A stretch of 64,000 nt of DNA from contig NZ_BJDQ01000003.1 in assembly GCF_005405225.1 (NCBI RefSeq), forward strand, positions 1 through 64,000. The letters run 5' to 3'. Positions 3,328-30,190 of this stretch are shown here, in pieces. Within the stretch, counting starts at the first letter, position 1. Each line of letters starts with the position of its first letter. Origin of the DNA: Enterococcus dongliensis (GTDB lineage: Bacteria; Bacillota; Bacilli; Lactobacillales; Enterococcaceae). Under the pieces are notes generated by a model. It was not told where the DNA came from. It made no database searches and saw nothing but the letters and a program-made list of their open reading frames with translations. The position numbers and the translations under genes are program-made.

Positions 3328-4446
3328 TCATTCTCCTTTTTCAATTCTTTGTTTATTGAATAAGTCAAAAAGACTTTTGGTACATATATATAGCTCATTA
3401 TTACTTCGAGTTAAAGCTACATATAATTTATTTGCTTCAGCTTGACTAGTATTCTTAGAAATTATATAATTTTCCTCACTAAATTTTTTATATGGTTCTG
3501 TTAATATTACTAAAACTTTTGAATAAGTATCTCCTTTACAATAACTCCAATTAATAGCAGGTTGATATGGAAAAGCTGAAGCTTTTCGATAAACTAATTT
3601 CACGCATCCTTCATCAATTAAAAGTTGTTCTAATTCATCAATATCAATAATATATTTAAAACTTCCTTTTTTCTCATTACAAGATAGTATGTCTATACCT
3701 AACTTCTTTTCAATAATTGAACAAATACTGCTTGGAACTCTTCGGCTTTTCTTTAAGGCTTCCTTATCAACTTCTAAAGATTTAGGTAGTGACAAACAAA
3801 ACTCTTCTTCAGTAAGAAATATTTTTTGTTTTTTATAAGGTTTACCACTTTTAGAAGATGTCATAGCAACAGAGTGTTGATAAAAATCTCCTACAGCAAC
3901 TGTATAAACTTTTTTTGATTTCATCAATAACATTAATAAATCAAAATCTTCCCCTTTAAAATCTTGAAACTCGTCAATATATATTGTATCAACAAGCAAT
4001 GATAATCTTTCTTCAATCAAAGGTTTTAGTATCTTTTTATTTTTTATTATCAACTTCGACATTCGACCAGAATAGTATCTATTATTATCAGGATTCAAAT
4101 AGTGTCCTATCTTGTCATCAGTAATGTATCCCTTTCTCGGTGGATTAGTACGAGGAACTGGTTCTTTAAAAATATCTACACCTCTACTTTTGATATTTTC
4201 AAATGGTAGAACTGCCTCTAAAGGTCTAATAATCCATGAATATAAGAAGCTACTATATGTGATTACTTCAACATTGTTGGGAATGCTATTATTAAATCTC
4301 TGCATAATTTCTTTTTTTATATTCGCCACGTTTTGATTGGTAAAAGTAATAAATAAAACTGATTTTTTCTCATCAAATGCATTAGCAATATGATACGTTT
4401 TTCCCGAACCTGCTCTTGCAAGAATTATTTTACCTGATTTAGCCAT
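3328..4446 (-). CDS. UvrD-like helicase, GajB-like component of a compact Gabija system
   Basis: 372 residues of helicase superfamily 1. Walker A is ARAGSGKT (10-17), Walker B/motif II is DEFQDF (158-163), and a motif VI-like VALTRS lies near residue 345. It overlaps the end of the OLD-family gene by 22 nt. In Gabija anti-phage systems an OLD/TOPRIM nuclease (GajA) is encoded with a UvrD-like protein (GajB), which matches this pair. The protein is clearly shorter than the prototype GajB of about 490 residues, so some accessory subdomains appear to be missing. Start chosen at ATG 4446 behind GAGGGG. Expected role: sensing or unwinding DNA ends and stimulating the nuclease (family knowledge). 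Confidence 0.75.
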   Translation of the reverse strand: MAKSGKIILARAGSGKTYHIANAFDEKKSVLFITFTNQNVANIKKEIMQRFNNSIPNNVEVITYSSFLYSWIIRPLEAVLPFENIKSRGVDIFKEPVPRTNPPRKGYITDDKIGHYLNPDNNRYYSGRMSKLIIKNKKILKPLIEERLSLLVDTIYIDEFQDFKGEDFDLLMLLMKSKKVYTVAVGDFYQHSVAMTSSKSGKPYKKQKIFLTEEEFCLSLPKSLEVDKEALKKSRRVPSSICSIIEKKLGIDILSCNEKKGSFKYIIDIDELEQLLIDEGCVKLVYRKASAFPYQPAINWSYCKGDTYSKVLVILTEPYKKFSEENYIISKNTSQAEANKLYVALTRSNNELYICTKSLFDLFNKQRIEKGE

Positions 4447-6038
4447 TTTAACCCCTCACTTATATACATTGGAACTTTTAAGTTATCAATATATTCAGAA
4501 TTTGTTGTTATCTCAATAGCAGAATCGGCTTTATTTTTCAACATATATGCTAATGCTTTGCTTTCTACATCTTCTTCTTTATAAATAGTAGATACATTTG
4601 AATTTTTTTTATAATCAGCTAATATTTTGATATTTTCATTAAATAGAACTCTTTCAAAAGTTGAATTCTCTATTTTCTCATCACACTTTATTAATATATT
4701 GCATCCATTTTCATTTAAACAATTATTCAATGCATCGATAGTCGTTATTCTCTCAGCATCTCCATCATTATCCGTAATAACTAAAAGTGGTTTTTGAATT
4801 TTTTTTGCAATTTCAACATAGTTTTTGTAAGTAATTCCTGACATCGATATTATATGCACACCAGATTCATCTATGCCTTTTCCACAAACAGTGTGATAAA
4901 AGTTAGGAATGTAAATATATTCCGTTGCACCTTCTACTAGAATTACTTTCTGAGATAAGATGAACTCTAGTAGGTTAGAATTATCTGATTTTTCAAAGAA
5001 TTTAGCTACTTTTTTATCTACATCATTTAATTTTACAGCTTTTTCATTTGGAGTTATCCATATAGTCTTTTGAATGTTTAGTCTAGATGTTATTAAAGGA
5101 TTATGAGTAGTAATAATTATTTGGGAATTATCTGACTCTACTTTTATTTTTTCAATTAATTTTTTTGTCATCGAATGGCTCAAATGGTTTTCTGGTTCTT
5201 CAACTAGAATAAGGCTTGAATCTATTTGCAATGCAACCTCAGTCTTAATAAAATTTTCTCTGCCTTTTCCCATATGTTGTATTGATATATTGTTTTCTCG
5301 GATATCAATTATTTTAGTAATACCAGATTTCTTCTCGTCAATAGAGATAGTTTGTTCACCTATTTTTAGTGATTCTTCTTCTGAATCTAAGAAGTCAGCA
5401 ATATGTGTTTTTAGCTTCATAGACAATTTTCTTCGGATATCATTTGGTATCTTATTCTCAAAAACTTGTTTAGTATAAGAACCATACAAATCATTCTTTA
5501 CAGATGAATTATCAATGAAAAGAGATTTTATTGGATTTTTCAATCTTTTATAGCTCCCACCTTGAAATGTAAGCCATTCAAATTTATAGAATTCTATAGG
5601 TATATTGGGATTTTCAGAAAAATTTAGTTTGTAAAAATCTTGTTCAAAATCACTATCAAAATGATACCAAAATTTTAAACCTGTTTTTTCTTCCTTCAAT
5701 ACTTTCCCATTCGTATAATCCAATCCCATAAAGTGTTGTTTACTTATTGGAAGCTCTGAATCCATATTTAAATATACTTCTATTAGAATTTCAGGTAGGT
5801 GAGAAAATTCAGGTTTGTTCTTGAATCGTTTAATATTATCTGCGTTAAATAATTGCTCATTATTTCCATCTATCAACCCATATATTTTTTGGTTTAAAGC
5901 TAAATCTATTGCTTCTAAAATTGTGCTTTTGCCTGCTTCATTCTCACCAACCAAAACATTCATATCTTTATTAAATATAATTTCAAAATCTTTAAATCTT
6001 TTAAAGCCGTGGATTATCATTTTTTCAATATAACTCAT
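4425..6038 (-). CDS. OLD-family ATPase-TOPRIM endonuclease, GajA-like
   Basis: 537 residues. N-terminal ABC/SMC-type ATPase: Walker A GENEAGKST (31-39), Walker B LVEEPE (278-283), H-loop TTH (310-312). C-terminal TOPRIM nuclease: EGATE (369-373) and the acidic DNDGD motif (423-427). This order and spacing is that of class 2 OLD nucleases, the GajA component of Gabija, which cut DNA when nucleotide pools fall during phage infection (family knowledge). The next gene is a UvrD-like helicase, the standard partner. Start at ATG 6038 behind GGGG; a GTG two codons upstream is possible. About 40 residues shorter than typical GajA. Confidence 0.8.
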   Translation of the reverse strand: MSYIEKMIIHGFKRFKDFEIIFNKDMNVLVGENEAGKSTILEAIDLALNQKIYGLIDGNNEQLFNADNIKRFKNKPEFSHLPEILIEVYLNMDSELPISKQHFMGLDYTNGKVLKEEKTGLKFWYHFDSDFEQDFYKLNFSENPNIPIEFYKFEWLTFQGGSYKRLKNPIKSLFIDNSSVKNDLYGSYTKQVFENKIPNDIRRKLSMKLKTHIADFLDSEEESLKIGEQTISIDEKKSGITKIIDIRENNISIQHMGKGRENFIKTEVALQIDSSLILVEEPENHLSHSMTKKLIEKIKVESDNSQIIITTHNPLITSRLNIQKTIWITPNEKAVKLNDVDKKVAKFFEKSDNSNLLEFILSQKVILVEGATEYIYIPNFYHTVCGKGIDESGVHIISMSGITYKNYVEIAKKIQKPLLVITDNDGDAERITTIDALNNCLNENGCNILIKCDEKIENSTFERVLFNENIKILADYKKNSNVSTIYKEEDVESKALAYMLKNKADSAIEITTNSEYIDNLKVPMYISEGLKWLNQVK

Positions 6039-6099
6039 TGTCACACCCCAATTTTAATAATAAGCATGTTGTAAGATTCACAATTTGTATTTCAATATA

Positions 6100-6123
6100 A
6101 TAAAAAGCCTAACTAAAGGCTTT
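6100..6123 (-). terminator. Terminator of the methyltransferase/DUF262-HNH operon
   Basis: AAAGCCT (6104-6110) pairs with AGGCTTT (6117-6123); on the minus strand it ends in TTTTTATT. The 259-bp gap between 6038 and 6298 otherwise shows only AT-rich DNA where the promoter of the Gabija-like operon must lie. Confidence 0.55.
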
Positions 6124-6297
6124 CATTTAAAAATGATTATTCAAACACTTTTTACAATGAAAATGTTCTTAATCATAACCACAAAAAATATTTGGTTTAA
6201 ACATATTTAAACTTATTTTGTAATATATTCGGAACTAAACGTGATGTATTTATTAAATCAACACAAATTATAACTTAATTGACTTTTACATTAATTG

Positions 6298-7467
6298 CTA
6301 GTAATTTGATTTCAAGCTATTGTGATGCTTACATAGCATTTGTAGATTGTTTCGTTCAGTTTTCCCACCTTTACTCCATGGTATTATATGGTCTCCTGCC
6401 ATCTCTTTGTATTTCCAAATATGTGTAGTATGTTCGTATTGTAAATCAGTTTTACAAATAGGACAGTTGGAACTATTATTTTTTTCCGCTTCATTAGTTT
6501 GTTCTCTATATTTAGACTTTTTATCTGTTTCTGAGAATGCCCGAATAGATAGCAGCTTAATAAATTCTGGTTTTTCACCACTTAGTATATACTCGAACAT
6601 ACCACTTTTCTTAGTTATGTCACTATCTTCATATAATTTTGAAATTTTATTTTCTACTTCAGTTGGATTATAAGAATTATTATGATATGTTTCATACAAT
6701 CTTCCCCATTCCAAACCACGCATTTCAGATTCAACGCTAGTAAAAACACTAGATACCCAATCTATAACTGTATTAAAATATGTTTTTAATTCATTAATAT
6801 TCGTATCATTTCGATGCTTTGACATATAATTATCAATTTCACCTTTACTTACCCAATTTAAAGCTTCTTGTAAAATCTCTTGCCTATTAACAACTCCCTT
6901 AATATAACTTTGCCATTTTTGTTGATTTGCATTTCCTGAATTTGAAAATTCCTTTTTCGCTTCTGATACAAAAGGGCCAGAATAAATTGCATTTCTCAGT
7001 TCTTGTTCATTAAGCGGTACTCCTGAAATATTAATCGTTTTAAACCATTCCTTTATTTCGCTTTCGCTTCCTTCACACTCATAGACTAAAAGTTCATAAT
7101 TTAATATCTTCTCCTGTTGGTCAATACTAAGTCCAGAAAAATAATTTCTGTTTCCATTAAAGTCCAATACAGCAAATTTCCCAGTGACAAAACGTCCTAT
7201 GGAGGTAATTCTTTGTTGCCCATCTAAAATCTCAAACGAATCATCTGAGATTTTATTGAAGTAGATTAGTCCTAAGGGATAACCTTTAAGAATAGATTCA
7301 ATACACGCCACATCTCTCTTTCCATCAGCATATATATAGTTCCGTTGATATTCAGGTTGGATGATTAACTTTCCAGATAATCCAAAAAGACCCTTTCCTT
7401 CAAAATCATTATATATAAACCCTCTGACAATTTCATCGACTGTATATGTTTTCAACTCCGTTCTCAT
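6298..7467 (-). CDS. DUF262 plus HNH nuclease protein
   Basis: 389 residues. N-terminal DUF262 (ParB/sulfiredoxin-like fold) with QPEYQRNY (37-44) and the signature DGQQR (82-86). A helical middle follows. The C-terminal HNH nuclease has a zinc-type CPIC knuckle, [17 protein letters not shown] and CKHHN. DUF262-HNH proteins occur in GmrSD, BrxU and other restriction systems where DUF262 uses NTP to control nuclease action. The ATG overlaps the stop of the methyltransferase by 4 nt, so the two are co-translated and the protein is the likely restriction partner (inference). It would cut DNA lacking, or alternatively carrying, the cognate methylation; the sequence alone cannot decide. Confidence 0.8.
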
Positions 7468-8768
7468 TTATTGCCACCTATCCTTTTCTTAATTAAAACT
7501 CTAGCATATGGTGCTATCAAATAATCTGCATTATCAGCACAGTAGTAAGTAGTATTAATATCAGGTTCGATAGTTTTCCTTATTGCCAAAACTTGATTGA
7601 TTGCTCCACCATTTACTATTTCTCTTGTTTTTTTCATTACTTTTTTGGGATTTATATAATCCTTGTTAGGAGTAAAATTTTCTCTACTATTTCCAAGACC
7701 TATTATTTCAAATTGTTCAGGATTATATTTATCTAAAAATGAAATAGGAACTCCCATTACTCCGTTATAATCTTTAGGTATCGCATCTGTAAATGGTACT
7801 TCGATACCATCTAAATTGTCATAATAGTCGTAGCTTTTCCCTTTAATACTTTTATGTTTACTAAACTTAATATTATCTTCCATAGTCATTAATGAAAGAA
7901 CTTGATGACGTTTTCCATGGTCTAAATTAGTTAACCATAGTGCATTATTTGTCGCTACAATCCTCTGCCCCTTTTCTATTCTAGCTTCTGAACCGTATAG
8001 TCCATAATTATCCGGTACAATAAAGCCTGAAATCCATCTTCCCATTCCTGTTCCTAGCCAAATTTTATTATCCTTTATCAATGGAAATACTTCTTTGTAG
8101 GTAATAGCATTCATATTTCCAATAATCAAAAATTGTTTCTCCAAAGGGTTAATCCAATTAAGAAATTCTCGAAACAAAGAGAACGGTGGATTTGTAATAA
8201 TAATATCTGCTTCCTCTCTAAGTTTCGATACTTCTTGACTTCGGAAATCTCCTGCTGAAAATCTTTCAATATTATCAGGATTTTTGTCACCTTCTAAATA
8301 AGATAAAATACTGCTTTTTCCGCCAGAATCAATTTTTTCTTTTTCTTTTTTCAATCTAGTAATTACGTCATTAATATTTACTGCACCAATACCATCTTCA
8401 TCTATTACTTCTGTTAGTTCTATCTTATAAGCTTCTTTGATATATTTATTTCGTCTACTATCAATTTCTTTTTCAGGTACTAATTCGGGTAGTAATGTAA
8501 GTTGAGTATTAACAATTGGGCTTGGTGCATATGACGTTGAAATTAATTTTTTAATTCCAAATTCATTGAATTTTGTAGCAAAAAACTTAAAAAAATTACT
8601 CTCGAATGGGTCATCTGCTGGTAAGAGAATTGTTTTTCCTAAAAAAACATTTGGATTATATTCTATATAGGCATTTATCTCTTTCTCTATATCTGACCAT
8701 TGAGTATAAAACTCATCATTCTTGCTTTTTTTGGCTTTTGTTAAATGTTGTCGACGTGAATTTGCCAT
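7464..8768 (-). CDS. EcoRI-type adenine-specific DNA methyltransferase
   Basis: 434 residues with the conserved N-terminal block of the EcoRI methylase family ([15 protein letters not shown] at 17-31; [17 protein letters not shown] at 48-64) and the catalytic amino-methyltransferase motif NPPF (193-196). It should transfer a methyl group from S-adenosylmethionine to N6 of adenine in a specific site. It is the first gene of a two-gene operon with the DUF262-HNH protein. Start ATG 8768 has GGAG upstream. An extended -10 (TGTTATACT) lies about 40 nt before it. Target sequence cannot be predicted from this; GAATTC would be the prototype but family members differ. Confidence 0.85.
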
Positions 8769-9347: not shown

Positions 9348-9530
9348 TTAACCTGCAGGTGTAGATTTATAATTCAAGCTTGCTTCTGCTGTATCTGTGG
9401 CATTCTTGAAAATACCTGCTAATTTAGGTTGTAATGTCTCACGGAATAAAATATATGCGATTAATACGAAAATACCAAAAATTACCACCGCTACGATTAC
9501 AAAAAGTCCTTGTGAAGCTCCATCTGTCAT
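9348..9530 (-). CDS. 60-aa single-helix membrane protein, paralogue of the 226-aa protein
   Basis: MTDGASQGLFVIVAVVIFGI, a transmembrane helix, then LFRETLQPKLAGIF and a polar tail. The first 41 residues are clearly related to the N-terminus of the protein at 20494-21174 (MTNGTSQGLFIVVAIIIFGI ... LKPSLSGIF). Short leader, long hydrophobic helix and amphipathic continuation recall pilin-like proteins, but there is no prepilin cleavage site. Shine-Dalgarno AAAGGAGG, 9 nt spacing. Function unknown. Confidence 0.65.
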   Translation of the reverse strand: MTDGASQGLFVIVAVVIFGIFVLIAYILFRETLQPKLAGIFKNATDTAEASLNYKSTPAG

Positions 9531-10316: not shown

Positions 10317-10422
10317 ATTGACTATTCAAAATTATGATTCTTTTTTATCTCAAAATTTTTGTAAAAATCCACTTAAAAAATGACCCTTAAAAAACCCTTA
10401 TTTATCAAGGGTTTTATACTTG

Positions 10423-10451
10423 TTGACAAAAACACAAGATTACTGTAATAT
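10423..10451 (+). promoter_or_regulatory. Strong promoter of small RNA A
   Basis: TTGACA (10423-10428), exactly 17 bp, TAATAT (10446-10451). The TATCAACG motif overlaps the last base of the -10 and the start region, a position where a repressor could act. Confidence 0.75.
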
Positions 10452-10457
10452 CAACGA

Positions 10458-10552
10458 TTTTTCAATGTATTTTAAAAAAAACACCTCTCAGATTCATTGA
10501 AGAAAAAAATGTGGGTAATTAACCACTTATTTTTATCTGGGAGGTGTTTTTT
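10458..10552 (+). ncRNA. Predicted small RNA A, about 95 nt
   Basis: Starts about 7 nt after the -10 and ends at a terminator formed by AACACCTCTCAGAT (10480-10493) and ATCTGGGAGGTGTT (10535-10548) with one G-U pair, then a T run. The loop of this long stem carries an inner hairpin GTGG-GTAATTAA-CCAC. No ORF of note. Not a class I recognise; it might be an antisense or regulatory RNA of the element. Confidence 0.6.
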
Positions 10553-10635
10553 AGATTAGATAAAAGTTGGAATGACTATAAAACACTGTTATACCAACCT
10601 TTTGTAATTATTTTCATTTAAAAATCTATCATTTC

Positions 10636-11568
10636 TTATTTTTCTATTTCTAATAAATTATCTCTTACTATTTTTAATAGGATTTTTTCTCTTTCTTCAA
10701 TAGAACTCGTTACATTTTCTAGAAAATCATCAATTTCTATTTTATTTTTAGGCAGTGAACATGCTTTATCGTCTAAGTGACCATTCCATAGCGAAATTGG
10801 GAAATCCCCTTCTATGAAAGGCTCTAAATGAAATCTCGTTACATAATCTTCCCAAGCATTAAAAGAATCCAAAAAGGTCTTTAAACTTTTTAATGCAAAA
10901 TCCCCATAGTCATTTGCTCCTCGACCACTATTAAACCCTTTAGGAACAACAATAATATTCCCTATACTATGAGTTAATCTTGCAAATGATAACAGTTTAG
11001 GATGCTTGTCATACACTTCACTAAATTTATCATGGTTATATAATAGAAAATCTACCCATGTATATTTTTCAGGAACTTCATTTGGTAGATACTCTGGAAA
11101 ACAAAGCTGGTAATATTCAATATATTTTTTGTGAATAACTAAATATTTATCGGAAGTATGTGGTGGGAAACGATTATCAATTTCAGGCAGATTCATTTTA
11201 TCTGGTTTTTCTAAAGGTATAACATTGCCCTTTTTTAAAGAACCTGAAGGTCTAAATAAATCTGGTCTTTCTAATTGCATCAATACTTTATATGTATGCC
11301 AGAAAGAGTGCAATACATCAGTATGTTCAATTGGTTTATCATCAGTTAAATGTTTAAACACTTCATCAACTACTCGATAATTTTCTATATGTCCTCTATA
11401 ACCTCTGCAATAATCCTTATTTATCCCTAATCCTTTAATATCTTGATAATATTTTTTTTCCTTTGCCATTAATATATTTTTAATAAAACTTTTTTCTTCA
11501 TCAATATAATTACTACCTAATAATTTTTTCTTCAAGTCTTTAAGAGAATCTAAATTTTCTTTATTCAT
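10636..11568 (-). CDS. Hypothetical 310-aa protein with HSIGN motif
   Basis: Soluble protein with a coiled, charged N-terminus (residues 1-45) and a conserved-looking block near residues 205-235, FARLTHSIGNIIVVP followed by GFNSGRGANDYGDFALKS. That block resembles hypothetical proteins of lactic acid bacteria and, loosely, the HxxGN part of DUF1524-type nucleases, but no catalytic set is evident. Single gene, ATG with AAGGAG 7 nt upstream. Function unknown. Confidence 0.65.
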   Translation of the reverse strand: MNKENLDSLKDLKKKLLGSNYIDEEKSFIKNILMAKEKKYYQDIKGLGINKDYCRGYRGHIENYRVVDEVFKHLTDDKPIEHTDVLHSFWHTYKVLMQLERPDLFRPSGSLKKGNVIPLEKPDKMNLPEIDNRFPPHTSDKYLVIHKKYIEYYQLCFPEYLPNEVPEKYTWVDFLLYNHDKFSEVYDKHPKLLSFARLTHSIGNIIVVPKGFNSGRGANDYGDFALKSLKTFLDSFNAWEDYVTRFHLEPFIEGDFPISLWNGHLDDKACSLPKNKIEIDDFLENVTSSIEEREKILLKIVRDNLLEIEK

Positions 11569-11900
11569 TTGTCAACTCCTTTTTAAAATTCTGTCATTCA
11601 AATTACACACCTAAAACACCATTAAATCTTTACAATCAATTCTATGCTGCTTAAAAAGCATTTTAAGCGGTTTTAAAATTTTATGTATAATTTATCGAAA
11701 ATGATTTTAAACGCTCTAACAAACAATAATAGGCTGTTTAAAACACACTATGCGTTATTTAAACCCTTGAATAGTTAAAAGAGAATAAAATATATCATTA
11801 ATGCTATATTATTGATACAGAGATGTTTCTTGGTGGTTTCCCAAAAATAAAAAAACAATACTGAATTATCAACATTTTGTTATATTTGTAAATATAGAGA

Positions 11901-12975
11901 GCAAATTTTAGCTATTTTACTAAACCTATAATTCTCTGTTTAATACGGTGGTAACACCACCGCCTTATCAATGCTTAAAAATAAAAATTCAAAAAAATGA
12001 AAATAAAGTTGCTCAAAAGTCGCTTTATTCTAGGTAAAAATTGCAGTTTGTTTTAGCGGTATATAATATTATAGAAAAAAATAGAATTTTTTTGAAAAAG
12101 ACCTTTAAAAACATCCCCTTTTTCTAGGAGAAAATCGAGATTCATTTTAGGGGTATAAAATAGAATATACTAATATATACCTCTAAAATGAATTGATAAA
12201 AACCTATTGATTTTATTGTCTTTTATTAACCTCTTTTTTCAAAAATTAAAAAAATTAGATGAAATTCAAGAAAATATTATCCCTAATTCTCCCTATTAAA
12301 TAAGCAAGATACAATCTTGCTGGAACTCAAAATACAAACACTGATATATCAACGTTTTATAGCTATTTTTATCACACAATTATCAAGTGTAAATAAGTTT
12401 TTGCGTAAAGATATGTGTGAAAACAGGTAAATTACCCTAGAATCTATTGACTTTTTTTGACCTTCCCATTATACACATCTAGAGGGAATATAAAAAGTGC
12501 GTATTGATTTTAGAAAAAACACGTAGTTTTCTATTGATTTTATTGGCTTTTATAAGCCTCCTCATTATACACATCTAGAGGGAATATCTTATATAGATGT
12601 GTATAATGATTTCTATCAATTATGCCAGTATTTTCTAGGGAAAACTATACGTATTCTTCCTGACTAATACGCAGTTTTGATTTGATATAAAAAGATAATA
12701 TTCTTAATACGATAGAAATAATCCTTTATCATCATAGGTTATTAATAAAAAAAACAGATAGAAATACTACCTGTCTAATATGCTAATTCATTTTATATAT
12801 AACATTCTTAGATGAATACTTCTCCTTAATCTCTAACTGATTATACAATTCTTTAGTCAGTCTACACGTATTCAAACCATATTTATTGTATACATCAGCT
12901 CTAATTTTCTGAAAGTTATTTTGAATAATTCTGTTCTTTATTTTTCTCACTCTAGCAAGTTTAGATATTAAATCT
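11901..12975. repeat. Origin-like unit 1 (diverged tandem copy)
   Basis: Homologous, with an offset of 1080 bp at the left end, to 12981-14035. Contains the hairpin CGGTGGT-AAC-ACCACCG (11946-11962); a motif in two direct copies plus one inverted copy (TTTTAGCGGTATA near 12050, CATTTTAGGGGTATA near 12143, inverted TATACCTCTAAAATG near 12178); hairpin AGCAAGATACAATCTTGCT (12303-12321); and a second motif, CATTATACACATCTAGAGGG, at 12468 and 12563 with a perfect 15-bp inverted copy at 12594-12608. It ends with a truncated copy of the replication gene. No intact gene is present. Confidence 0.75.
12783..12975 (-). pseudogene. Truncated duplicate of the 3' end of the primase-like replication gene
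   Basis: Translates to DLISKLARVRKIKNRIIQNN and onwards to EKYSSKNVIYKMN and a stop at 12783, aligning with the C-terminal 60 or so residues of the protein at 13849-15690 (DLISKLARVRKTKKSITQNN to EKYSSKVVLYK). There is no upstream part, so it is a remnant of the tandem duplication. Confidence 0.85.
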
Positions 12976-12980
12976 AGGCA

Positions 12981-14035
12981 GCAAATTTTAGCTATTTGAC
13001 TAAACCTATAATTCTCTGTTTAATAAGGTGGTTTCACCACCTGCTTATCAATGCTTAAAAATAAAAATTCAAAAAAATGAAAATAAAGTTGCTCAAAAGT
13101 CGCTTTTTTCTAGGGGAATATTCAAGTTCATTTTATGACAATAGAATATTATATAAAAAAATCAATTTTTTTTGAAAAACACCTTTAAAAACAGCCCTTT
13201 TTTCTAGGGAAATATTCAGGTTCAATTTATGACAATAGAATAGAATATACTTATATATTGTCATAAATTGAACTGATAAAAACCTATTGATTTTATTGAC
13301 TTTTATTAACCTCTTTTTTTAAAAATGAAAAAAATTAGACGAAATTCAAGAGAATACTATTCCTAAATCTCTCTATTAAGTAAGCAAGATTATATCTTGC
13401 TGTCACAAAAAAATAGAAATACTTATATACCAACGTTTTATAGCTATTTTAATCACACAATTATCAAATGTAAATAGTTTTTTGCGTAAATAATAGTGTG
13501 AAAACAAGTAGATTTCCCTAGAATTTATTGGGTTTTTTTAACTAATTTGTTTTACACTAATAGAAGTAGTATGTAAAAATGGAACAAATCCTTTGAAAAT
13601 ACCTATGAAAAACCCTTGATTTTATTGACTTTTTTAAACCAATTCGTTTTACACTAATAGAATTAGTATATATTATTATATTATTGTAAAATGAAATAGC
13701 TAAAAAAAGACAGTATTTATGGGAACTTTCTATACATATTCACACTATTATTTACACTATAACCTATTTACAATTAAGATATGTCTGATAATAGCTATAC
13801 AAAACATAGAAAAAAACAGGTATATAATTCTACCTGTTTAATAGCTTACTATTTATAAAGAACAACTTTAGATGAATATTTCTCTTCTATACCCAATTCA
13901 TAATATAATTCCTTCGTCAATCGTTCTCTTTTAATTCCATAATTATTATAAATATCAGCTCTAATTTTCTGAAAGTTATTTTGAGTGATGCTCTTCTTTG
14001 TTTTCCTCACTCTAGCAAGTTTAGATATTAAATCT
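12981..14035. repeat. Origin-like unit 2
   Basis: Same scaffold as 11901-12975: hairpin AGGTGGT-TTC-ACCACCT (13026-13042), CTAGGG-type boxes, AGCAAGATTATATCTTGCT, and runs of TTGATTTTATTGACTTTT. The motif copies differ from unit 1 in concert: CATTTTATGACAATA and CAATTTATGACAATA with inverted TATTGTCATAAATTG near 13255; and TTTTACACTAATAGAA twice (near 13550 and 13648). It runs into the 3' end of the intact replication gene. Probable replication origin of the element (inference). Confidence 0.75.
13810..13838 (-). terminator. Terminator of the replication gene
   Basis: CAGGTA (13817-13822) pairs with TACCTG (13831-13836); minus-strand T run follows. A decayed version lies at 12754-12774 behind the truncated copy. 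Confidence 0.6.
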
Positions 14036-15690
14036 GATTCATACATATATCCTTGTTCTTCAATCTGAGTCATAAGAATTTTTACAGCTGATTTCTCTAA
14101 TGCCACACTAGCCTTAGTTAAATTTCTATCTCTTTTACTCATGCTCACTAAACCTCTGTCTTCCAGTGGTTTATATGCTTGTGGAAAGTCTTGGTTTGCT
14201 TTTTCCTCTCCAAATAATCTATAAACCAAGTTATAACCTAATCCTGAAATCGTAACATTATTTTTCACCATTTCCTTAGCTAATATTTGAGAGTTTTCAA
14301 TATTTACCACTGGATAATATACATTACTTGTTCTTATTTGCCCAGAATTCTCTTGTTGATTTAAAATCAACTTTTCCTTCAGGTCTAAAGGTATGGATTT
14401 TGACTCTGCCTTACGAATCAGTTCTGTGACGGTCACTACATTTAAAATATTCCACATTTTCCCTTCGGATATTTTATATCCCAAATTTTCTTTTACTAAC
14501 TTAGCATACGTTTTTAAAGAAATGAAATTCATATATTTCACTTCCCCAGTCTCTTTATCCATATACGTATAATCAAAAATTAAGTCTAAAAGTAAATCTA
14601 TTTCTTGTCTGTAATTATACAAATATTTATTTAAATCAGGATAGTTTAACCTTAAAGTATTACGTTTTAATGCTTTTTGTAGTTCCATTGCATTATATCT
14701 TGCTTCTCCAATTTCACTCTTCCAATTTATTTCACTATTTGTAATCGTTATCAGAACTTCAATAACTTTTGTATAGGATTTAATATTGAGCAACTTCCTT
14801 ATAACTCTTATAATATCTCCTTGGAAAGGAGATTGTTCACTGAAGCACTTATATAAATAAATATCGTATTCTTCATTTAGATAGACACTTGCACTTGGGT
14901 TTATTTCCTCATGGAAAATATCTAAAAATGGATTCGTATCTGGAAGTTCCAATATTTCTACCATATCTATAGTTTTAAAAAAGTTCCCTGCAACAATAGG
15001 GTCAGAAAATTCACCAGAAAAATTATTTCCTAGTTTTTCTGCAATAATATCAAATTTTCCTAATTTTAATAGTTCATAATTTGGTATTGAATCATGCACT
15101 ATTTCATTGTTTGAATCTTCTATTACCAGAGAATTTTCAACATTTATGTTTCTCAACAGCTCAGAAACATCTAACCGATTATCCCAATCAATCACTTCAT
15201 ATCCAGAGTTGCTTCCGAAAAATAATCTACTCGTTTGCCCAATACTAGTGTCTGCTTGAGGATATAATTTAAATAATTCTTGATATATTTGTTCAATTTC
15301 TTTATTAGAAGTAACCACTCTATCTAATCGAAAAACCACACGAAATTTATCTACGTTAGAATTTTTATCACTAAATGTTTTATATATAAAACAAGCATAT
15401 TCTTGCATCAACGAATCTTGCTCAAAATCCTCAATCGTATACAAATTATTTTCATCTTTATTATCAAAATCAAGCATTATTAATTCTTGACCAATAATCT
15501 CTGTATACTTAGACAACTTAGGCTCTTTTAATTCAGCTAAAACAACGGTTTTACCATTCAAAGTTAGTTCTTCTGCAAAATCCTGAATAGAAATCTCTAC
15601 TAACGTGTTCATAATAGTGTTAGATATTTTACGAATGGTAATTGGATTGGGCTTTTCTTTATTAGTAATATTACTTAGATAACACTTCAT
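13849..15690 (-). CDS. Primase-like replication protein (archaeo-eukaryotic primase fold)
   Basis: 613 residues. The N-terminal part shows features of AEP-type primase/Rep proteins: a catalytic-like DFD (74-76) in LIMLDFDNKD, then FRVVFRLD (117-124) and QTSRLFFGS (152-160). The remainder is helical; the C-terminal part (MSKRDRN ... DLISKLARVRKTKK ... NNFQKIRADIYNNYGIKRERL) looks like DNA-binding helices. Start at ATG 15690 with GGAGG 9 nt upstream; a GTG two codons earlier is too near the site. It reads away from a small HTH gene and ends in origin-like repeats, so it probably initiates replication of the excised element there. No helicase domain recognised. Confidence 0.65.
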   Translation of the reverse strand: MKCYLSNITNKEKPNPITIRKISNTIMNTLVEISIQDFAEELTLNGKTVVLAELKEPKLSKYTEIIGQELIMLDFDNKDENNLYTIEDFEQDSLMQEYACFIYKTFSDKNSNVDKFRVVFRLDRVVTSNKEIEQIYQELFKLYPQADTSIGQTSRLFFGSNSGYEVIDWDNRLDVSELLRNINVENSLVIEDSNNEIVHDSIPNYELLKLGKFDIIAEKLGNNFSGEFSDPIVAGNFFKTIDMVEILELPDTNPFLDIFHEEINPSASVYLNEEYDIYLYKCFSEQSPFQGDIIRVIRKLLNIKSYTKVIEVLITITNSEINWKSEIGEARYNAMELQKALKRNTLRLNYPDLNKYLYNYRQEIDLLLDLIFDYTYMDKETGEVKYMNFISLKTYAKLVKENLGYKISEGKMWNILNVVTVTELIRKAESKSIPLDLKEKLILNQQENSGQIRTSNVYYPVVNIENSQILAKEMVKNNVTISGLGYNLVYRLFGEEKANQDFPQAYKPLEDRGLVSMSKRDRNLTKASVALEKSAVKILMTQIEEQGYMYESDLISKLARVRKTKKSITQNNFQKIRADIYNNYGIKRERLTKELYYELGIEEKYSSKVVLYK

Positions 15691-15763
15691 ATTCACTATC
15701 CTCCAGCATTAGAAGTCTCCCATATTTCATCACAATCACTTTCTCTAATAATATCGTTTTTTC

Positions 15764-15940
15764 TTATGTCAATCCACGCTTTCCCTTCCTAAAATTATGT
15801 AGGTTTTGATTGTGAACACCTATGGATTTAGAAAAAACAGTCATTTTTACCCCATAGATTTTGTCCAATATATGTAGCCAAGTCTTTACCTTTTCTTGTT
15901 TCTCCGTCAATTCCTCTTCTGTTATTTTTTTTGAATTCAT
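15764..15940 (-). CDS. 58-aa helix-turn-helix protein upstream of the replication gene
   Basis: MNSKKITEEELTEKQEK, a linker, then MTVFSKSIGVHNQNLHNF and RKGKRGL, a pattern like a phage-type helix-turn-helix (FSKSIGVHNQNLHNFRKGKR). GGAGG lies 8 nt before the ATG at 15940. The stop at 15764 is 73 nt before the replication gene on the same strand, so the two are probably co-transcribed and the protein may set its copy number (inference). Confidence 0.55.
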   Translation of the reverse strand: MNSKKITEEELTEKQEKVKTWLHILDKIYGVKMTVFSKSIGVHNQNLHNFRKGKRGLT

Positions 15941-16169
15941 TCAATTTATCCTCCAGAAATTATTTTATTAATCAATTTAGGTCCGGACTATATCATCAAT
16001 TATCAACTGAAGTCAAGAATGAGTCTCATCTCCTTTTAGCAAAAATATAACCAGTGTATTTTTATAAAAAGAATACTCTTATTTTTTTATTCCGTTCTTA
16101 GATATATCAAAACTATTAAAATCATTGATATATCAAAGCTTATTCTATTTTCTATCTTAAACCCAAACT

Positions 16170-16264
16170 AAAAAACACCTTAAATTGAACATGTAGTGGA
16201 TAATTCCCCATAAAATTTTTTTCGTGATGTCTGAGAGGCATATTTTCAAAAATCCATTGAAAAA
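16170..16264 (-). ncRNA. Predicted small RNA B
   Basis: Minus-strand promoter TTGACA (16294-16299), 17 bp, TAATAT (16271-16276). Transcript runs to AAGGTGTTTTTT near 16170. The 5' arm reads GCCTCTCAGA rather than ACACCTCTCAGA, so its lower stem is weaker than in A and C. Possibly decaying. Confidence 0.5.
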
Positions 16265-16384
16265 TCATTGATATTACAGTAATCTTGTATTTCTGTCAAC
16301 AAGTATAAAACCCTTGATAAATAAGGCTTTTTTAAGGGTCATTTTTTAAGTGGTTTCTGATGATAATTTTGAGATATATTTTAT
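16170..16384 (-). repeat. Small-RNA cassette, copy B
   Basis: Inverted relative to copy A. Shares with A the promoter region almost base for base (AAGATTACTGTAATATCAA) and with C the 3' part (GGGGAATTATCCACT). The upstream hairpin pairing AACCCTT-like arms is imperfect here. Lies behind the Fic operon and that operon's own terminator. The rest of 15941-16449 is AT-rich and includes a TTGATATATCAA palindrome at 16125-16136. Confidence 0.75.
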
Positions 16385-16390
16385 CAAAAT

Positions 16391-16432
16391 AAAAAAATAT
16401 TGGAACGAGCATCTCACTCACCTTCCAATATT
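16391..16432 (-). terminator. Terminator of the Fic operon
   Basis: AATATTGGAA pairs with TTCCAATATT around a 15-20 nt loop, with a minus-strand T run. Confidence 0.65.
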
Positions 16433-16449
16433 TTCTTCAATAAGCTATT

Positions 16450-16926
16450 TTACAATTTTAGTTCCAACCATTTTTTATTTTTATTGATATTTTTTCTCAT
16501 GTATAAATCTTTTTGGCTATAATCTAATAATTTGTCCTTAGATAATAATACACCTTTTGAACGGATTCTTAATCGCATATTTTCAATAATATACATATAA
16601 TCACTTTTTTCTTTTGGTGGTTCGTTAGATAGTATGTCCTTTTTCACTTCTTCTTCACTTTTATTGAAAAACCTAGCTATTCTATGAACAGTTAATTTTA
16701 AGTTTTCTTCTACATCACTATTATCAATGCCAAAACACCGTATCAACACACGCATCATTTTGTCAAATGTTTCTAAATTATCAAAACTACCAAAGTCATA
16801 GTCTCTAAGTGTTCCTTCAATTTCTGCTTGTATAATTTCTTCAGGATAAGAAGGAAGTAATTGCTTTGCTAGAATAGGTAAAGAAACACTGTTACTTAAT
16901 AACTGGTCATCTGATATCACTTCCAT
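16450..16926 (-). CDS. Hypothetical 158-aa protein, partner of the Fic protein
   Basis: Soluble, acidic, helical protein; starts 2 nt after the Fic stop, with AAGAAGG before its ATG. It contains SEEEVKKDILSNEPPKEK and a basic C-terminus (KNINKNKKWLELKL). No known antitoxin family recognised. By position it could be the immunity or regulatory partner of the Fic protein. Confidence 0.6.
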   Translation of the reverse strand: MEVISDDQLLSNSVSLPILAKQLLPSYPEEIIQAEIEGTLRDYDFGSFDNLETFDKMMRVLIRCFGIDNSDVEENLKLTVHRIARFFNKSEEEVKKDILSNEPPKEKSDYMYIIENMRLRIRSKGVLLSKDKLLDYSQKDLYMRKNINKNKKWLELKL

Positions 16927-16928
16927 AA

Positions 16929-17570
16929 TTACACCTTCTTTAGAAAATATTTTTTCAAATAGGAAATGAATGATTGATATTCTCCTTTTTCATACCAGCT
17001 CTTCAGATATTCATACCATTTTTTTCCATTATCACTTGGTAAATACAACACACCTAAATTACTATTCATTAATAAATGGTTTGTTAGCAAATACGCTGAA
17101 CGTTTGTTGCCATCGTTGAAATATTGTTGCTTCATTAAAATAAGATACATATACAAAATAGAATCTACACTCAGTTTCACTTGATTAAACAGATGATTCA
17201 ATTCTGCCACTGATTCAGAATAACTTCTAACAGGGGGAATGTAAGATGAACCACTGATAGTTATTGTTTTTATTCTAATCTGTCCTTCTTCCATAGGATT
17301 ATAAAAAGTTCTATCCGTCAATGATTCATTGATATCTGAGTAAAAATCAATAGTGGGTTTTCCCGCTTCTTTTGCTAATATCATTTTCCAAGAAGCATAA
17401 ATATTAAGTAGAATAATTTTATCTTTACCAACCAGACTACTCACTTTACCATTACTTAATAACTCAGCAGTTTGAAATCGAGTAGCAATTTTCCCTTCAA
17501 GTAAAGATGTTCGATAAACCAAATCTACTTTATGTTGTTTAAAGTATTCAATGTATTTTTTCTGAACCAT
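16929..17570 (-). CDS. Fic-family protein with an altered active-site motif
   Basis: 213 residues. The Fic core motif HxFx(D/E)GN(G/K)R appears as QYFNDGNKRSA (from residue 149), with glutamine at the position of the catalytic histidine. The rest of the Fic fold is plausible, with the upstream FNQVKLSVDSILYMYLILMK helix and the downstream helix pair. Normal Fic proteins transfer AMP or other groups to proteins; loss of the histidine should impair this. Start ATG 17570 has AAAGGAGG 9 nt upstream. First gene of a two-gene operon that resembles a toxin-antitoxin or defence module. Confidence 0.7.
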   Translation of the reverse strand: MVQKKYIEYFKQHKVDLVYRTSLLEGKIATRFQTAELLSNGKVSSLVGKDKIILLNIYASWKMILAKEAGKPTIDFYSDINESLTDRTFYNPMEEGQIRIKTITISGSSYIPPVRSYSESVAELNHLFNQVKLSVDSILYMYLILMKQQYFNDGNKRSAYLLTNHLLMNSNLGVLYLPSDNGKKWYEYLKSWYEKGEYQSFISYLKKYFLKKV

Positions 17571-17804
17571 GTATTTCATCCTCCTTTCTAAAAGCAATCT
17601 CACTTACCTTCATTATCTTCTATTAATCTTCATATAAAATTGCAAGCTACTTTCTCAGTATCACTCAATTTTCTTCAAGTTTTACTTTATCTATTTTTTT
17701 TGTCCTGAAAGCTTTCCAATACAACATGACCTTACCATCATCTAGAACTGAAGTAAAGTCTTTGATTTATCAACATTTTAGTTGCTTATTCTCATTTCTA
17801 TATA

Positions 17805-17900
17805 CAAAAAACACCTTAAATTGAACAAGAAGTGGATAATTCCCCACAAAAAAATTTTATTGAAGTCTGAGAGGTGTTTTTTGAAAAATAGTGCTTTAAA
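17805..17900 (-). ncRNA. Predicted small RNA C
   Basis: Minus-strand promoter TTGACA (17930-17935), 17 bp, TTACAT (17907-17912), weaker -10 than A and B. Transcript has AACACCTCTCAGA, inner hairpin GTGG-GGAATTAT-CCAC and ends AAGGTGTTTTTT. ATCAACG follows the -10 as in copy A. Confidence 0.55.
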
Positions 17901-18010
17901 ACGTTGATGTAACAGCAATCTATTAATTTTGTCAACAAGTATAAAACCCTTGATAAATAAGGCTTTTTTAAGGGTTATTTTTTAAGTGGTTTTTGATGAT
18001 AATTTTGAGA
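17805..18010 (-). repeat. Small-RNA cassette, copy C
   Basis: Same orientation as copy B, shares its 3' half and the upstream AACCCTT/AAGGGTT-type hairpin. Located behind the two-gene unit 18045-19362. The remaining part of 17571-18044 holds a TTTGATTTATCAACATTTTA motif at 17761-17780. Confidence 0.75.
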
Positions 18011-18025
18011 TAATTTTTGAATAAA

Positions 18026-20493: not shown

Positions 20494-21174
20494 ATGACAA
20501 ATGGAACAAGTCAAGGACTATTCATAGTCGTTGCAATTATAATATTCGGTATTTTTATATTTATAAGTTATTTACTTTTTATGGATAATTTAAAACCTAG
20601 TCTGTCAGGAATATTTACAGATGGTTTAGAACAATCTGTAAATAGTTTAGATAATTACGATGGAAAAAATCACATTGGAAATGAATTAACCATCACTAGA
20701 GGATATGTTTCTAATTATTTACATGACAAAGGTACTCCAATTAGTGGTGAGAACTCTGTCTATTTAAAAAATAAAGACTTAAACATCATTGAGTTAACTT
20801 CTGAAGAAGCAAGTGAAAAATGGAATTATTCAGTAAATAGCAATACTATTACTATCAAAGGTATTGGAGTGCTTTATAAAAATGTTTATAGTAAATCTTT
20901 AGAAAAATATTTAGATGAAGAAACACAAAATGCAACTTTCACTCAAAAAATAACTGGTGATATTACAAACTTCACAAGTACTAATAAATTTATAGACCGT
21001 AAGTCAATAAAAAATAATCGTTCAGAAGATGCTGCTGGGCTGCATAATTCTTCAGGCTACTCTATCCAACTAGATAAAGAATATACTTTCACACAAACTT
21101 TAACTAATAATTATAGTGGTAAAGTAACTCAAGAAACTTACAAGTTTAAGTTTATAATTAATGATAATAAATAA
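20494..21174 (+). CDS. 226-aa single-helix exported protein, pilin-like layout
   Basis: Short N-terminus (MTNGTSQGLF), one long hydrophobic helix (about 10-30) and an amphipathic continuation LKPSLSGIF, then about 170 residues rich in Ser, Thr and Asn that would lie outside the cell. N-terminus is paralogous to the 60-aa protein at 9348-9530. No prepilin peptidase site, lipobox or sortase motif. AAGGAGG is 12 nt before the ATG, a wide spacing. The gene is followed by remnants of a possible second gene and a terminator. Function unknown; a surface or contact role is an inference from topology. Confidence 0.65.
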   Translation: MTNGTSQGLFIVVAIIIFGIFIFISYLLFMDNLKPSLSGIFTDGLEQSVNSLDNYDGKNHIGNELTITRGYVSNYLHDKGTPISGENSVYLKNKDLNIIELTSEEASEKWNYSVNSNTITIKGIGVLYKNVYSKSLEKYLDEETQNATFTQKITGDITNFTSTNKFIDRKSIKNNRSEDAAGLHNSSGYSIQLDKEYTFTQTLTNNYSGKVTQETYKFKFIINDNK

Positions 21175-24321: not shown

Positions 24322-26223
24322 TTAATTACTCTTGTAACAGTCCAATTCTTCATTTATTCTAACAGTAAATATTATCAGAATCATAAGCAGTTCCAAGTAA
24401 TAACTCTTATAATCACTGTCTTGTTTTTTCCCATAGCTACCATGAGTAATCTTGTTTCGAATTGCCAATGCATTGCTAAATTTTTTATTATCCATTATAT
24501 ATGAAATATAATCACTCTCTTGTTTAGAAAATAAAGTATTACTATATTTAACATTTCCTTTCACATTTTCTTCCTCAATAACTTTTAAATCTGATTCTGA
24601 CAGGTATAGAGTAGATAAATAACCTTTCTCCCACAACAAATAATAAAAACTTATACTTGTAGGATTTGTAAATCTTATTTGGTTAGCCAAATTAATATAC
24701 AAAACTTTATCCTTTATAAGAGAATCTATCACTTTCTTCTGATACTCATAGAAATCATTAATCGAAATTCCATATTGAACATACTCATAAAAATTCTTTC
24801 TACCTTTTTTCTTTTCTGGGAATGATAAATTCGATTGGCTGTTAAAGATTAATTTACAAAAATTTAGCTTTTCTTTTGAATCAAAGTAGACAAATTTTTT
24901 TTCACTCAATGATTTAATTTCCTGATAGTTAGTAATTTTTGAATCCAATTCGAAAACATCAGAATCAATTTCACCATATCTCTGAACAAAATCAAATTGT
25001 TTTAATAAACTATCCAGTTCTGGAATTAACAGTTTACATCTTTCATAATAAGTATAGCTTTTCGAACTTGCATTAAAGAAAAAATCAGGAAAACCATACT
25101 CAGATTTTAAATGTTCATTGTAGTAAAAAGCGAAAACTTCTTCCAAATCAATTTTTAAGAAGGTTAAATAATCAAAGTATGCTAATAAAGAAAGCTTATA
25201 AAAATTGTTTTGGTATTCAGATATGAGTGTTTGATTATAAGCATAATTTGATTTAGTTTGAAATATCTCTAACAAACCGCCATGTTCATATGGTGAATCA
25301 ATCATAGAAAATTGAAAGAAATGGTTAAAAAAACCAAAAAAATAAATAAAATTATTCAAAATTGTAGGGTAATCATGTTCCTCATCAATCCAATCTTTAG
25401 ATAACAAAAATTGCAAATCTCTAGAACTTTCTTGCACAAATTCAAAGTCTGTTTTTAAGCCTTCTTTAAGACCTACTGCCATTTTCCAAGATACTCCATT
25501 TTTTAAGGACATCGTCTTTTCAGTTTGTTCTATTTTTTTCTTTCTTGCTTTTGAAATTATTCTTGAATCAAGTTTATATTCATGATGTAAGCTCCAATAT
25601 GAAATTCGCTCTAAGTAGTTAATATTCGCTTCATCAAGTTCACAATATCTTCTAGCCCAGTCATTTATTTCTTCATCAGATAAGTTATCTGGTAAATAAA
25701 TGTTTTTAATATTAGGAGAATCATACTTATCAAGAAAAAACTCAAAGTAAACAGGATTTGACAATAGTTTCTTCTTAAAAAACAATTTATACTTTTCACA
25801 TATTTTTTGATATTCTAATAATAAATGAATAGGTATTTTATATTCATCAATAATTTTCTCGAAGTCAACATATTCTGTCCTCTTTATTACCTTGAACCTA
25901 ACAAATATATCCCAAAAATCTGATTGATATTGAAAGTGTAAATCACTATATTCTGTTATGTATTCTGACAATTCTCCTTTACCGAAATATTCGTTTAATA
26001 GTCGATGAGAACTTTTTCTACATTCAGAAATTTTTTCTGATGACATTTCCTTAAAATAACCCAAATCCAAAAACTTTAACACATTATATATCTCAATTGC
26101 TTCATTAAGAGTATTGATTATAGGGTTTAAAATAAAGTCATTGATAAAAGTTTCTACATTACTTAAATCTAATCCAGTTGATAAATCATTTTCGCCATAA
26201 AACTTAATCCAATTATTTTTCAT
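24322..26223 (-). CDS. Large protein with C-terminal HEPN-type motif, defence candidate
   Basis: 633 residues, soluble, mostly helical, many aromatic residues. Near the C-terminus RNKITH (589-594) fits the Rx4-6H signature of HEPN ribonucleases, followed by a hydrophobic helix (YYLELLMILIIFTVRINEEL) as in the last helix of HEPN folds. No other domain recognised in residues 1-560. Single gene between the short recombinase and the integrase, a typical place for variable cargo. If HEPN is right, it may cleave RNA in an abortive response. AAAGGTG lies before the ATG. Confidence 0.5.
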   Translation of the reverse strand: MKNNWIKFYGENDLSTGLDLSNVETFINDFILNPIINTLNEAIEIYNVLKFLDLGYFKEMSSEKISECRKSSHRLLNEYFGKGELSEYITEYSDLHFQYQSDFWDIFVRFKVIKRTEYVDFEKIIDEYKIPIHLLLEYQKICEKYKLFFKKKLLSNPVYFEFFLDKYDSPNIKNIYLPDNLSDEEINDWARRYCELDEANINYLERISYWSLHHEYKLDSRIISKARKKKIEQTEKTMSLKNGVSWKMAVGLKEGLKTDFEFVQESSRDLQFLLSKDWIDEEHDYPTILNNFIYFFGFFNHFFQFSMIDSPYEHGGLLEIFQTKSNYAYNQTLISEYQNNFYKLSLLAYFDYLTFLKIDLEEVFAFYYNEHLKSEYGFPDFFFNASSKSYTYYERCKLLIPELDSLLKQFDFVQRYGEIDSDVFELDSKITNYQEIKSLSEKKFVYFDSKEKLNFCKLIFNSQSNLSFPEKKKGRKNFYEYVQYGISINDFYEYQKKVIDSLIKDKVLYINLANQIRFTNPTSISFYYLLWEKGYLSTLYLSESDLKVIEEENVKGNVKYSNTLFSKQESDYISYIMDNKKFSNALAIRNKITHGSYGKKQDSDYKSYYLELLMILIIFTVRINEELDCYKSN

Positions 26224-26286: not shown

Positions 26287-27264
26287 CTATAATGTTTGCA
26301 ATGGTGAAAAATTTACCGCTTTACTAATTTCATCTTCAATATTTAAACTTCTTAGATAAACTTCCGTTGTTTTTATTGAAGCATGTCCTAGTAGTTTCTG
26401 AATTCTATAAATATCAGTTCCATTCCGAACTAATTTTTGGGCAAAATAATGTCGAAAACTGTGTGGACTTACCCGAATAGACTTTCTAATTTCACACTGA
26501 TTCCCAATTTTTATGATTGCTCGTTCAGCTAAAATATAGTTGTATTGTTTACCTTCTCTTGTTAAAAATACATAATTGTCTATATTCTCTATTTCATTAT
26601 ATTCAAAAAAGGAATTTGCTACTCGCTTGTATTTTATATATTCTTTGTAAATCAACGGTGAGCAATGAACAATCCTATCTTTCTTCCCTTTCCCATTTTC
26701 AACAAATAACTCTTTATTAGTAATGTGAACATCTTTTAAGTTCATTACCTCATTAATCCTAAGTCCTGTGTCTATAAGAATTAGTAAGAGCAAATAATCC
26801 CTTTGATTTGTGAATTTTGTTTGATAGCCAGTATGTTGCTTATCCATTTTCTGAGGTTTAAAGAAAGTTAACTTCTTTGCTACTCGCAACATCTCTTTGA
26901 TTTCCATATCATTAAATGTCTGAATAATTACCTTACGCTCTTTTACCCATTTAACACGCATACAGGGGTTTCTATCGTATCGGATATAATCTTCATCTAC
27001 ACAATACTTAAAATACGCTCTGATGCTTCTTAGATGGCTATTCACATATGTTTCAGCACATCCCTCTTCTAATTTCATCAACATGAATTGCCGAATGCTT
27101 TTTGGAGTCACGTCTTCAATAAAGTATATCTGCTCTTTTTTCAAAAATTCAAAGAACAGTTTCAAAAACTTCTGATGCTTCTTTATCGTCTTTTGTGAGA
27201 TTCCTCTGGCTTTTTCGTTGAATAACATTTCTTCTAATAGTTCCTCTAACATGAAATTTTGCAA
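26287..27264 (-). CDS. int: Tyrosine integrase of the element
   Basis: 325 residues: N-terminal SAM-like core-binding domain (about 10-100), catalytic domain with IDTGLRINEVMNLK (first Arg), SPHSFRHYFAQKL (HxxR), LLGHASIKTTEVYLRS (His and nucleophilic Tyr). TTG start at 27264 with AAAGGAG 8 nt upstream. It lies 200 bp inside the right border, reading away from it, the usual arrangement for site-specific integration; it should recombine the 3' end of the sufT-like gene with the element's copy. No excisionase was identified. Confidence 0.85.
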   Translation of the reverse strand: MQNFMLEELLEEMLFNEKARGISQKTIKKHQKFLKLFFEFLKKEQIYFIEDVTPKSIRQFMLMKLEEGCAETYVNSHLRSIRAYFKYCVDEDYIRYDRNPCMRVKWVKERKVIIQTFNDMEIKEMLRVAKKLTFFKPQKMDKQHTGYQTKFTNQRDYLLLLILIDTGLRINEVMNLKDVHITNKELFVENGKGKKDRIVHCSPLIYKEYIKYKRVANSFFEYNEIENIDNYVFLTREGKQYNYILAERAIIKIGNQCEIRKSIRVSPHSFRHYFAQKLVRNGTDIYRIQKLLGHASIKTTEVYLRSLNIEDEISKAVNFSPLQTL

Positions 27265-28976: not shown

Positions 28977-29014
28977 CTAAATCCTTCTTTCAATTTTTTT
29001 GATAGTTTTTCTTG

Positions 29015-30088: not shown

Positions 30089-30143
30089 ACTATCTCCTCC
30101 ATAAGGCAATGAATTTCTTTTACCATTGCAGTATGTCAGATCA

Positions 30144-30183: not shown

Positions 30184-30190
30184 GACAAAA

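Follow-up and report, generated by a model that had tools for sequence, protein, structure and literature searches.

Gene modules that sit between copies of a short repeated site, and that differ between relatives, are known from the dif (pdif) modules of Acinetobacter plasmids (PMC13141974, PMC12907356). A similar arrangement is encountered in a 64,000-nucleotide stretch of Enterococcus dongliensis DNA (contig NZ_BJDQ01000003.1, positions 1 to 64,000 of the forward strand; hereafter the window), where the initial annotation had pointed to three related small-RNA cassettes, here called A, B and C. The pdif sites are Xer sites of about 28 bp that alternate in orientation, whereas the cassette measures 206 bp, keeps a single orientation on each side of a replication gene (rep) and has scattered crossover ends; no dif-like core was found, the best match to a Firmicutes dif sequence averaging 15.6 of 28 positions in 39 copies versus 16.5 in shuffled ones. 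Single-strand initiation signals form a second point of comparison, and include the G-site/ssi of R1 and RSF1010 and the ssoA and ssoU of rolling-circle plasmids. The cassettes resemble these signals in being hairpin-like, polar relative to the origin and near a primase-type rep, and differ in lacking the one sso motif tested and in their often mismatched arms; their own function is a predicted one. Like the oriT mimics of staphylococcal plasmids (PMC4652767, PMC8136818), they are inverted-repeat sites on elements typed as non-mobilizable (four of the five plasmid records with A); unlike these mimics, the related staphylococcal core occurs on only four of the plasmid records searched, and NZ_CP137463, which has A, is typed as conjugative with a MOBP relaxase. 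No account that we recognised as the 206-bp unit was found in the titles and abstract openings of the literature searched. We favour, at a probability of roughly 45%, the reading that the cassette is a DNA-level maintenance site flanking the origin of a mobile element, with module exchange following from its repetition.

The three homologous copies lie where the initial annotation had placed them, with small corrections to their ends, which were set by landmark (Table 1): B closes at 16375 and not 16384, and C spans 17806-18011 in place of 17805-18010. B is 82% (E 5.8e-55) and C 80% (E 9.9e-45) identical to A. Starting from 11 aligned copies, a profile search brought the number to 34 (at least 90 bits, 21 loci), and later finds raised it to 39; dropping near-identical ones (93% or more) left a non-redundant set of 33. 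The unit is a gap-poor block in which a conserved upstream segment is followed by a promoter-like one and then by a nested inverted repeat. Its 5' part contains, in order, ATCTCAAAA, CCACTTAAAAAATGACC and a box ending in ATCAAGGGTTTT, which forms a hairpin in only some copies, and is followed by the promoter-like part (TTGTTGACA, 17 bp, T(A/T)ATATCAACG) and by a 3' part made up of arm 1 (AAAAAACACCTCTCAGA), a core TGTGGG(T/G)AATT..(C)CACT and arm 2 (TCTGAGAGGTGTTTTTT). A palindrome similar to AACGTTGATATATCAACGTT trails the unit at variable distance. Spacings between landmarks were nearly invariant in the 33 copies (22 bp in 33, 54 bp in 29, 23 bp in 32, 30 bp in 31, 35 bp in 31, 25 bp in 30 and 17 bp in 31), the stretch 3' of the T-run being variable in length. 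Upstream of the promoter, spacing is no less rigid than in the putative transcript, and conservation amounts to 0.71–0.73 in the upstream blocks versus 0.68–0.72 in the RNA part. No coding potential was seen, with stops in every frame of all 33 copies. Since a model of the core found it conserved in 14 of 105 Enterococcaceae genomes (E ≤ 1e-4), chance is excluded as the origin of the cassettes. A DnaA box was considered, with 8/9 matches in the core of 18/33 copies and anywhere in the unit in 20/33 (8.9 expected from unit shuffles), and was not adopted because no core reached 9/9.

The cassettes are arranged around a replication region. Wherever a locus can be read on both flanks, the copies lie to either side of rep and the inferred origin and are directed inward, and the palindrome is common to unit and origin. 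The window-type elements share a backbone in the order c5 (small tyrosine recombinase), c3, c0 (a surface-type protein, leucine-rich in named relatives), c1 (serine resolvase), c6, c9, c4, cassette, c7 (a helix-turn-helix protein), c2 (rep) and origin, followed, where both sides are seen, by an oppositely oriented cassette and cargo. Single loci deviate: L064 and L066, for example, have another long gene behind c4. Beyond the origin, a DUF6933 gene precedes the start of the cassette match by 7–8 bp in four of five loci (the window, L005, L063 and L067; not L078). We take the rep-like protein to be primase-polymerase-like by motif; a sequence search of solved structures with it returned only weak, unrelated-looking matches, and its relatives at 26–33% identity are proteins of staphylococcal and Bacillus plasmids, of which pWBG758 and pTAB7B carry phage genes. 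The origin was inferred from repeats downstream of rep. In the window this region is duplicated, with a remnant of the rep 3' end (12786-12977) between two cores, and L064 and L067 likewise have two origin cores.

Of the 29 copies that share a locus with rep, 28 point toward it, the exception being a diverged copy in L123. Similarly, 20 of 21 face the best origin-core match (>60 bits), the exception lying in the Enterococcus italicus locus (L063), where the origin next to rep is hidden by a run of N and the best match sits elsewhere. Rep was found at E ≤ 1e-150 in 10 of 395 Lactobacillales genomes, and the core in all ten of these versus three of the other 385, i.e. in 13 of 395 altogether, the two scans having drawn 395 genomes each that were taken as the same set. 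The three core genomes outside the strong-rep set encode a different primase-like protein (G032), a truncated rep (G025) or are represented by G419, the single match of a looser arm pattern in the 395 genomes; as the reversed control of that pattern matched two genomes, G419 rests on the core model (E 3.6e-5). No cassette was found at 16 further loci with distant rep relatives (L124-L139). The initial annotation had placed each cassette behind a co-directional cargo operon, which describes the three window copies and does not extend to a general rule, the upstream neighbour being co-directional in 21 of 34 copies.

The palindrome is found at the cassette end, again within the origin cores and once more ahead of c5, which suggests a putative element-wide DNA-binding protein. 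With at most 6 of 20 mismatches, 13 palindromes lie in the element versus 5 in the longer chromosomal part, and with at most 5 mismatches, 8 versus 0, counts in which base composition is uncontrolled. Of the AACGTTGATATATCAACGTT-like palindromes, those at 2694, 24172 and 27421 lie just upstream of c5 and at both element ends; the ones near the ends have 6/20 mismatches, a level also reached in the chromosome.

The copies are mosaics, as originally proposed: the promoter half is common to A and B, the 3' half to B and C. The segments in which copies are nearly identical break off at many different positions, which makes one fixed crossover point unlikely and favours general recombination over a dedicated recombinase. 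Between the backbone operon and c7-rep lies a slot that is visible in 12 loci; loci in which c4 or this rep is missing (among them L068, L070, L075 and L123) were left out of this count. The slot holds one cassette and no module in nine (L063, L064, L065, L072, L074, L076, L077, L079 and L122) and two cassettes with one module in three (the window, L067 and L066), and thus fits a pdif-like rule of one more site than modules, two of the three module loci being near-identical. The cargo between cassettes differs, near-identical copies of a Fic module lying in the window and L067, and two small genes, one of them DUF2089, in L066. In E. italicus the Fic module is absent from the slot and the single cassette is C-like on its left and B-like on its right: the upstream flank is 94.6% identical to C versus 56.8% to B, the promoter part is 98.6% C-like, and the downstream flank is 88.8% identical to B versus 54.1% to C. 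This chimera may be the product of one crossover between C and B, or may represent the state before module entry. L074 and L079 follow the same trend at lower identity, and L065, L122 and L066 are too diverged to judge. With this one clean case and the slot pattern, exchange between cassettes appears to add and remove gene modules, in line with the module-exchange site first suggested.

Under the favoured reading of a maintenance site, proteins would bind the cassette as double-stranded DNA, as suggested by its fixed spacings, by the distance of about 51 bp (five helical turns) between arm centres and by the lack of strand preference. The cassette would serve in replication or maintenance, and a short transcript might be fired in the direction of the origin. 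Because same-side copies are direct repeats, recombination between them could gain or lose the module in between and so make mosaic cassettes, most likely by ordinary homologous recombination. A role in plasmid control, raised in the initial annotation, is plausible because the unit brackets rep and the origin and shares its palindrome with the latter. Several points weigh against a maintenance site. About two ancestral positions seem to have given rise to the copies, and this makes the orientation rule, with its exception in L123, weaker than it sounds. The rep link is not absolute, as a Rep_3 plasmid (L140) carries two cassettes that point the same way around its circle and the core occurs in phage-plasmids without this rep. 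The few gaps could instead mean recent spread of related, non-independent copies, the binding protein is only putative, 9 of 33 copies (B and C among them) have mismatched arms, and the promoter is strikingly well kept across copies, a feature that a pure DNA site could do without. A bolder version of the same reading, in which the cassette would be an undescribed class of 206-bp origin-flanking nucleoprotein site in Gram-positive mobile elements, needed for replication and also a docking point for modules, is to our minds unlikely. If true, any module with one cassette could enter beside an existing one by recombination, an integron-like outcome with no integrase.

The best-surviving alternative, which we hold to be possible if doubtful, is that of the initial annotation, namely a small-RNA gene giving an RNA of about 95 nucleotides from TTGACA/TAATAT to the T-run, the copies together encoding a family of RNAs with regulatory roles in the element. 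The promoter-like hexamers are TTGACA-17-TAATAT in A and B, as had been noted, and TTGACA-17-TTACAT in C. In a window this rich in AT such matches are no rarity (52 versus 57.7 in shuffles), and their weight therefore lies in the conservation of the predicted promoter, with TTGACA in 34 of 39 copies and the 17-bp spacer in 38; a run of six T follows in 32. It is because the promoter is so well conserved that we keep the small-RNA reading. The terminator stem proposed for all three cassettes was borne out for A, which folds strongly compared with shuffles (z -5.8), and is not general, being weak in C (z -1.91 to -2.0) and absent in B (z +0.7 to +0.86; 152 of 200 shuffles fold as well). B is without a stable stem because, like C, it combines two arms of different types. 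The arms fall into two sequence types, found as 1/1 in 20, 2/2 in 4, 1/2 in 9 and 2/1 in none of the 33 copies, and two of the nine 1/2 copies (L066_6987 and L075_11744) look decayed and not clearly type 2. The short hairpin described as conserved is GTGG..CCAC in A and C and ATGG..CCAC in B, with G opposite A at the fourth pair in 12 of 33 copies.

The inverted repeat itself is real. In 28 sequences, none of the 500 column shuffles and none of the slid versions reached its pairing or covariation; the covariation score was 0.179 versus 0.118 shuffled (0/500 reach it), so that the arms do covary. Pairs with two-sided changes numbered 10, which is not above shuffles (178/500 reach 10), and own arms paired better than swapped arms (118/5000 shuffles as good). 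The repeat was also kept on both strands: 24 of 33 copies fold at z < -2 on the top strand and 23 on the bottom strand (paired test, p 0.52), and the 24 arm-concordant copies showed no pairing bias toward a transcribed strand that tolerates G-U and not A-C, G-T mismatches filling 20 and A-C mismatches 31 of 432 cells. As the spacings are equally rigid outside the RNA part, a DNA site fits at least as well as an RNA; the copies being related and mosaic, the strand test is evidence and not proof. Loop lengths hardly vary, and none of 4227 families of Rfam 15 matches the window at gathering score, the best sub-threshold matches on A being far under the cut-off (e.g. 27.2 versus 87 bits). The staphylococcal relatives, moreover, have no T-run and, by eye, no evident promoter. 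Regarding antisense action on element genes, a cassette profile (E ≤ 1) gave, beyond cassettes and reverse self-matches, only partial matches of at most 18 bits in element loci, which is not a direct antisense test.

Less probable again is a priming site, in which the inverted repeat, in single strands such as the lagging-strand template or incoming DNA, would load a primase or RNA polymerase for synthesis toward the origin, in the manner of the ssi/G-site signals of other plasmids. The direction of 28 of 29 copies is that of lagging-strand synthesis if replication starts beside rep, the repeat is kept on both strands, and the replication protein is primase-like by the motif noted above. Against this stand the roughly two ancestral positions, the nine copies with mismatched arms and the sso motif CS-6 (TAGCG), which occurs in 0 of 39 copies on either strand. 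Frpo, a single-strand promoter type, was used for comparison and rejected as a model: in predicted folds of single-stranded DNA (seven copies, both strands) there was no consistent -35/-10 duplex, the partners of -35 and -10 varying and the two never lying together in one duplex with a third segment. Least probable is a recognition site of the small tyrosine recombinase c5 for plasmid resolution or module shuffling. In its favour, c5 is present in 9 of 21 mapped loci (some end before its place), a relative lies 1.3–2.5 kb from the core in pWBG758 and pC15, and a lone core-like site in a Lactobacillales genome of another family (L195, 9697-9877) is found about 200 bp upstream of a gene for a 197-aa tyrosine recombinase. 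Against it, the complete records pVB3378_p2 and NZ_CP120061 have cassettes or core with no c5 relative at E ≤ 1e-3, none of eight other relatives of the L195 recombinase (from 1,933 records) has a core within 900 bp, segment ends are scattered and a dif-like match is missing.

A blastn search with A matched 25 of the 105 family genomes at E ≤ 1e-3, 11 of these with short stretches only, and five of 72,556 plasmid records, a sixth record (Vagococcus) being found by a short match to B. Close copies of A occur in E. italicus (G058, 97%) and on NZ_CP137463 (98.9%). In a sample of 398 genomes of the class, 14 had a match at E ≤ 0.01; two of these were strong, and the other 12, below 20 bits, were taken as chance without inspection. 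The 77-bp core with the same arms, 43–44 bp apart, was found in the Staphylococcus aureus phage-plasmid pWBG758, in two phage-plasmids and one resistance plasmid of Mammaliicoccus sciuri and in one IMG/VR contig. None was found among the phage records searched. In viral contigs, an exact hairpin pattern gave 25 stretches, which scored at most 22.3 bits with the cassette profile, the one scan made of them, and a core pattern gave two matches, a relative on a staphylococcal-type phage contig (L146) and one that looks like chance (L145); the looser arm pattern gave 93 stretches including L146, not inspected singly, and the upstream-block pattern none.

All three cassettes lie inside one integrative element of about 25 kb, in a fragmentary Enterococcaceae genome (contig C3; 74% complete). 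To the left of A, 3328-8768 encodes defence-like cargo, namely a Gabija-like pair (GajA E 3e-89, GajB E 5e-47) together with an EcoRI-type methylase and a GmrSD/HNH nuclease. A link to defence, considered in the initial annotation, thus extends to the neighbouring cargo, while no cassette is tied to one defence gene. A 633-aa protein (24322-26223) matches the PADLOC candidate PDC-S56 (E 3e-129) and has no Pfam match at E ≤ 0.01. The proteins encoded at 9348-9530 and 20494-21174 share a similar N-terminal membrane leader with an SQGLF motif and a hydrophobic run, and some relatives are annotated as leucine-rich-repeat proteins. To the right of the insertion (27948-32231), the translations suggest a D-Ala-D-Ala-type ligase, a VanZ/VanY-like fusion and a two-component system.

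Table 1 Coordinates of the cassettes and associated features in the window.
Feature	Position	Strand	Remarks
Cassette A	10347..10552	+	206-bp unit
Cassette B	16170..16375	-	206-bp unit; arms mismatched, no stable stem
Cassette C	17806..18011	-	206-bp unit; arms mismatched, weak stem
Arm1-core-arm2 inverted repeat of A	10476..10552	+	77 bp
Arm1-core-arm2 of B	16170..16246	-	77 bp
Arm1-core-arm2 of C	17806..17882	-	77 bp
Promoter-like TTGACA-17-TAATAT of A	10423..10451	+	predicted
Promoter-like TTGACA-17-TAATAT of B	16271..16299	-	predicted
Palindrome like AACGTTGATATATCAACGTT, right of A	10582..10601	.	5/20 mismatches
Palindrome like AACGTTGATATATCAACGTT, downstream of B	16121..16140	.	4 mismatches
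Palindrome like AACGTTGATATATCAACGTT, downstream of C	17758..17777	.	5 mismatches
Origin-core copy 1	12296..12408	-	holds palindrome at 12337 (2 mismatches)
Origin-core copy 2	13376..13489	-	inferred
Rep-like protein	13849..15696	-	no Pfam match; relatives L065 and L068 match PHROG 25531
Fic-containing module between C and B	16450..17603	-	Fic E 8e-5, 23.8 bits (Pfam cut-off 24); PDC-S04 E 2e-6
Element bounds (direct repeats)	2537-2693 and 27462-27618		153/157 identical
Tyrosine integrase	26287-27264
Insertion target, 3' end of DUF59-like gene	27446-27796		putative label, from translation

The enterococcal elements with the unit carry defence-like and other cargo. If the favoured reading is true, an origin-bracketing unit at module boundaries would help to explain how this cargo is swapped, and the unit would provide a handle for locating where modules begin and end in islands that lack annotation. 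Should it act in priming or control as well, it would indicate a replication arrangement for which we found no known match.

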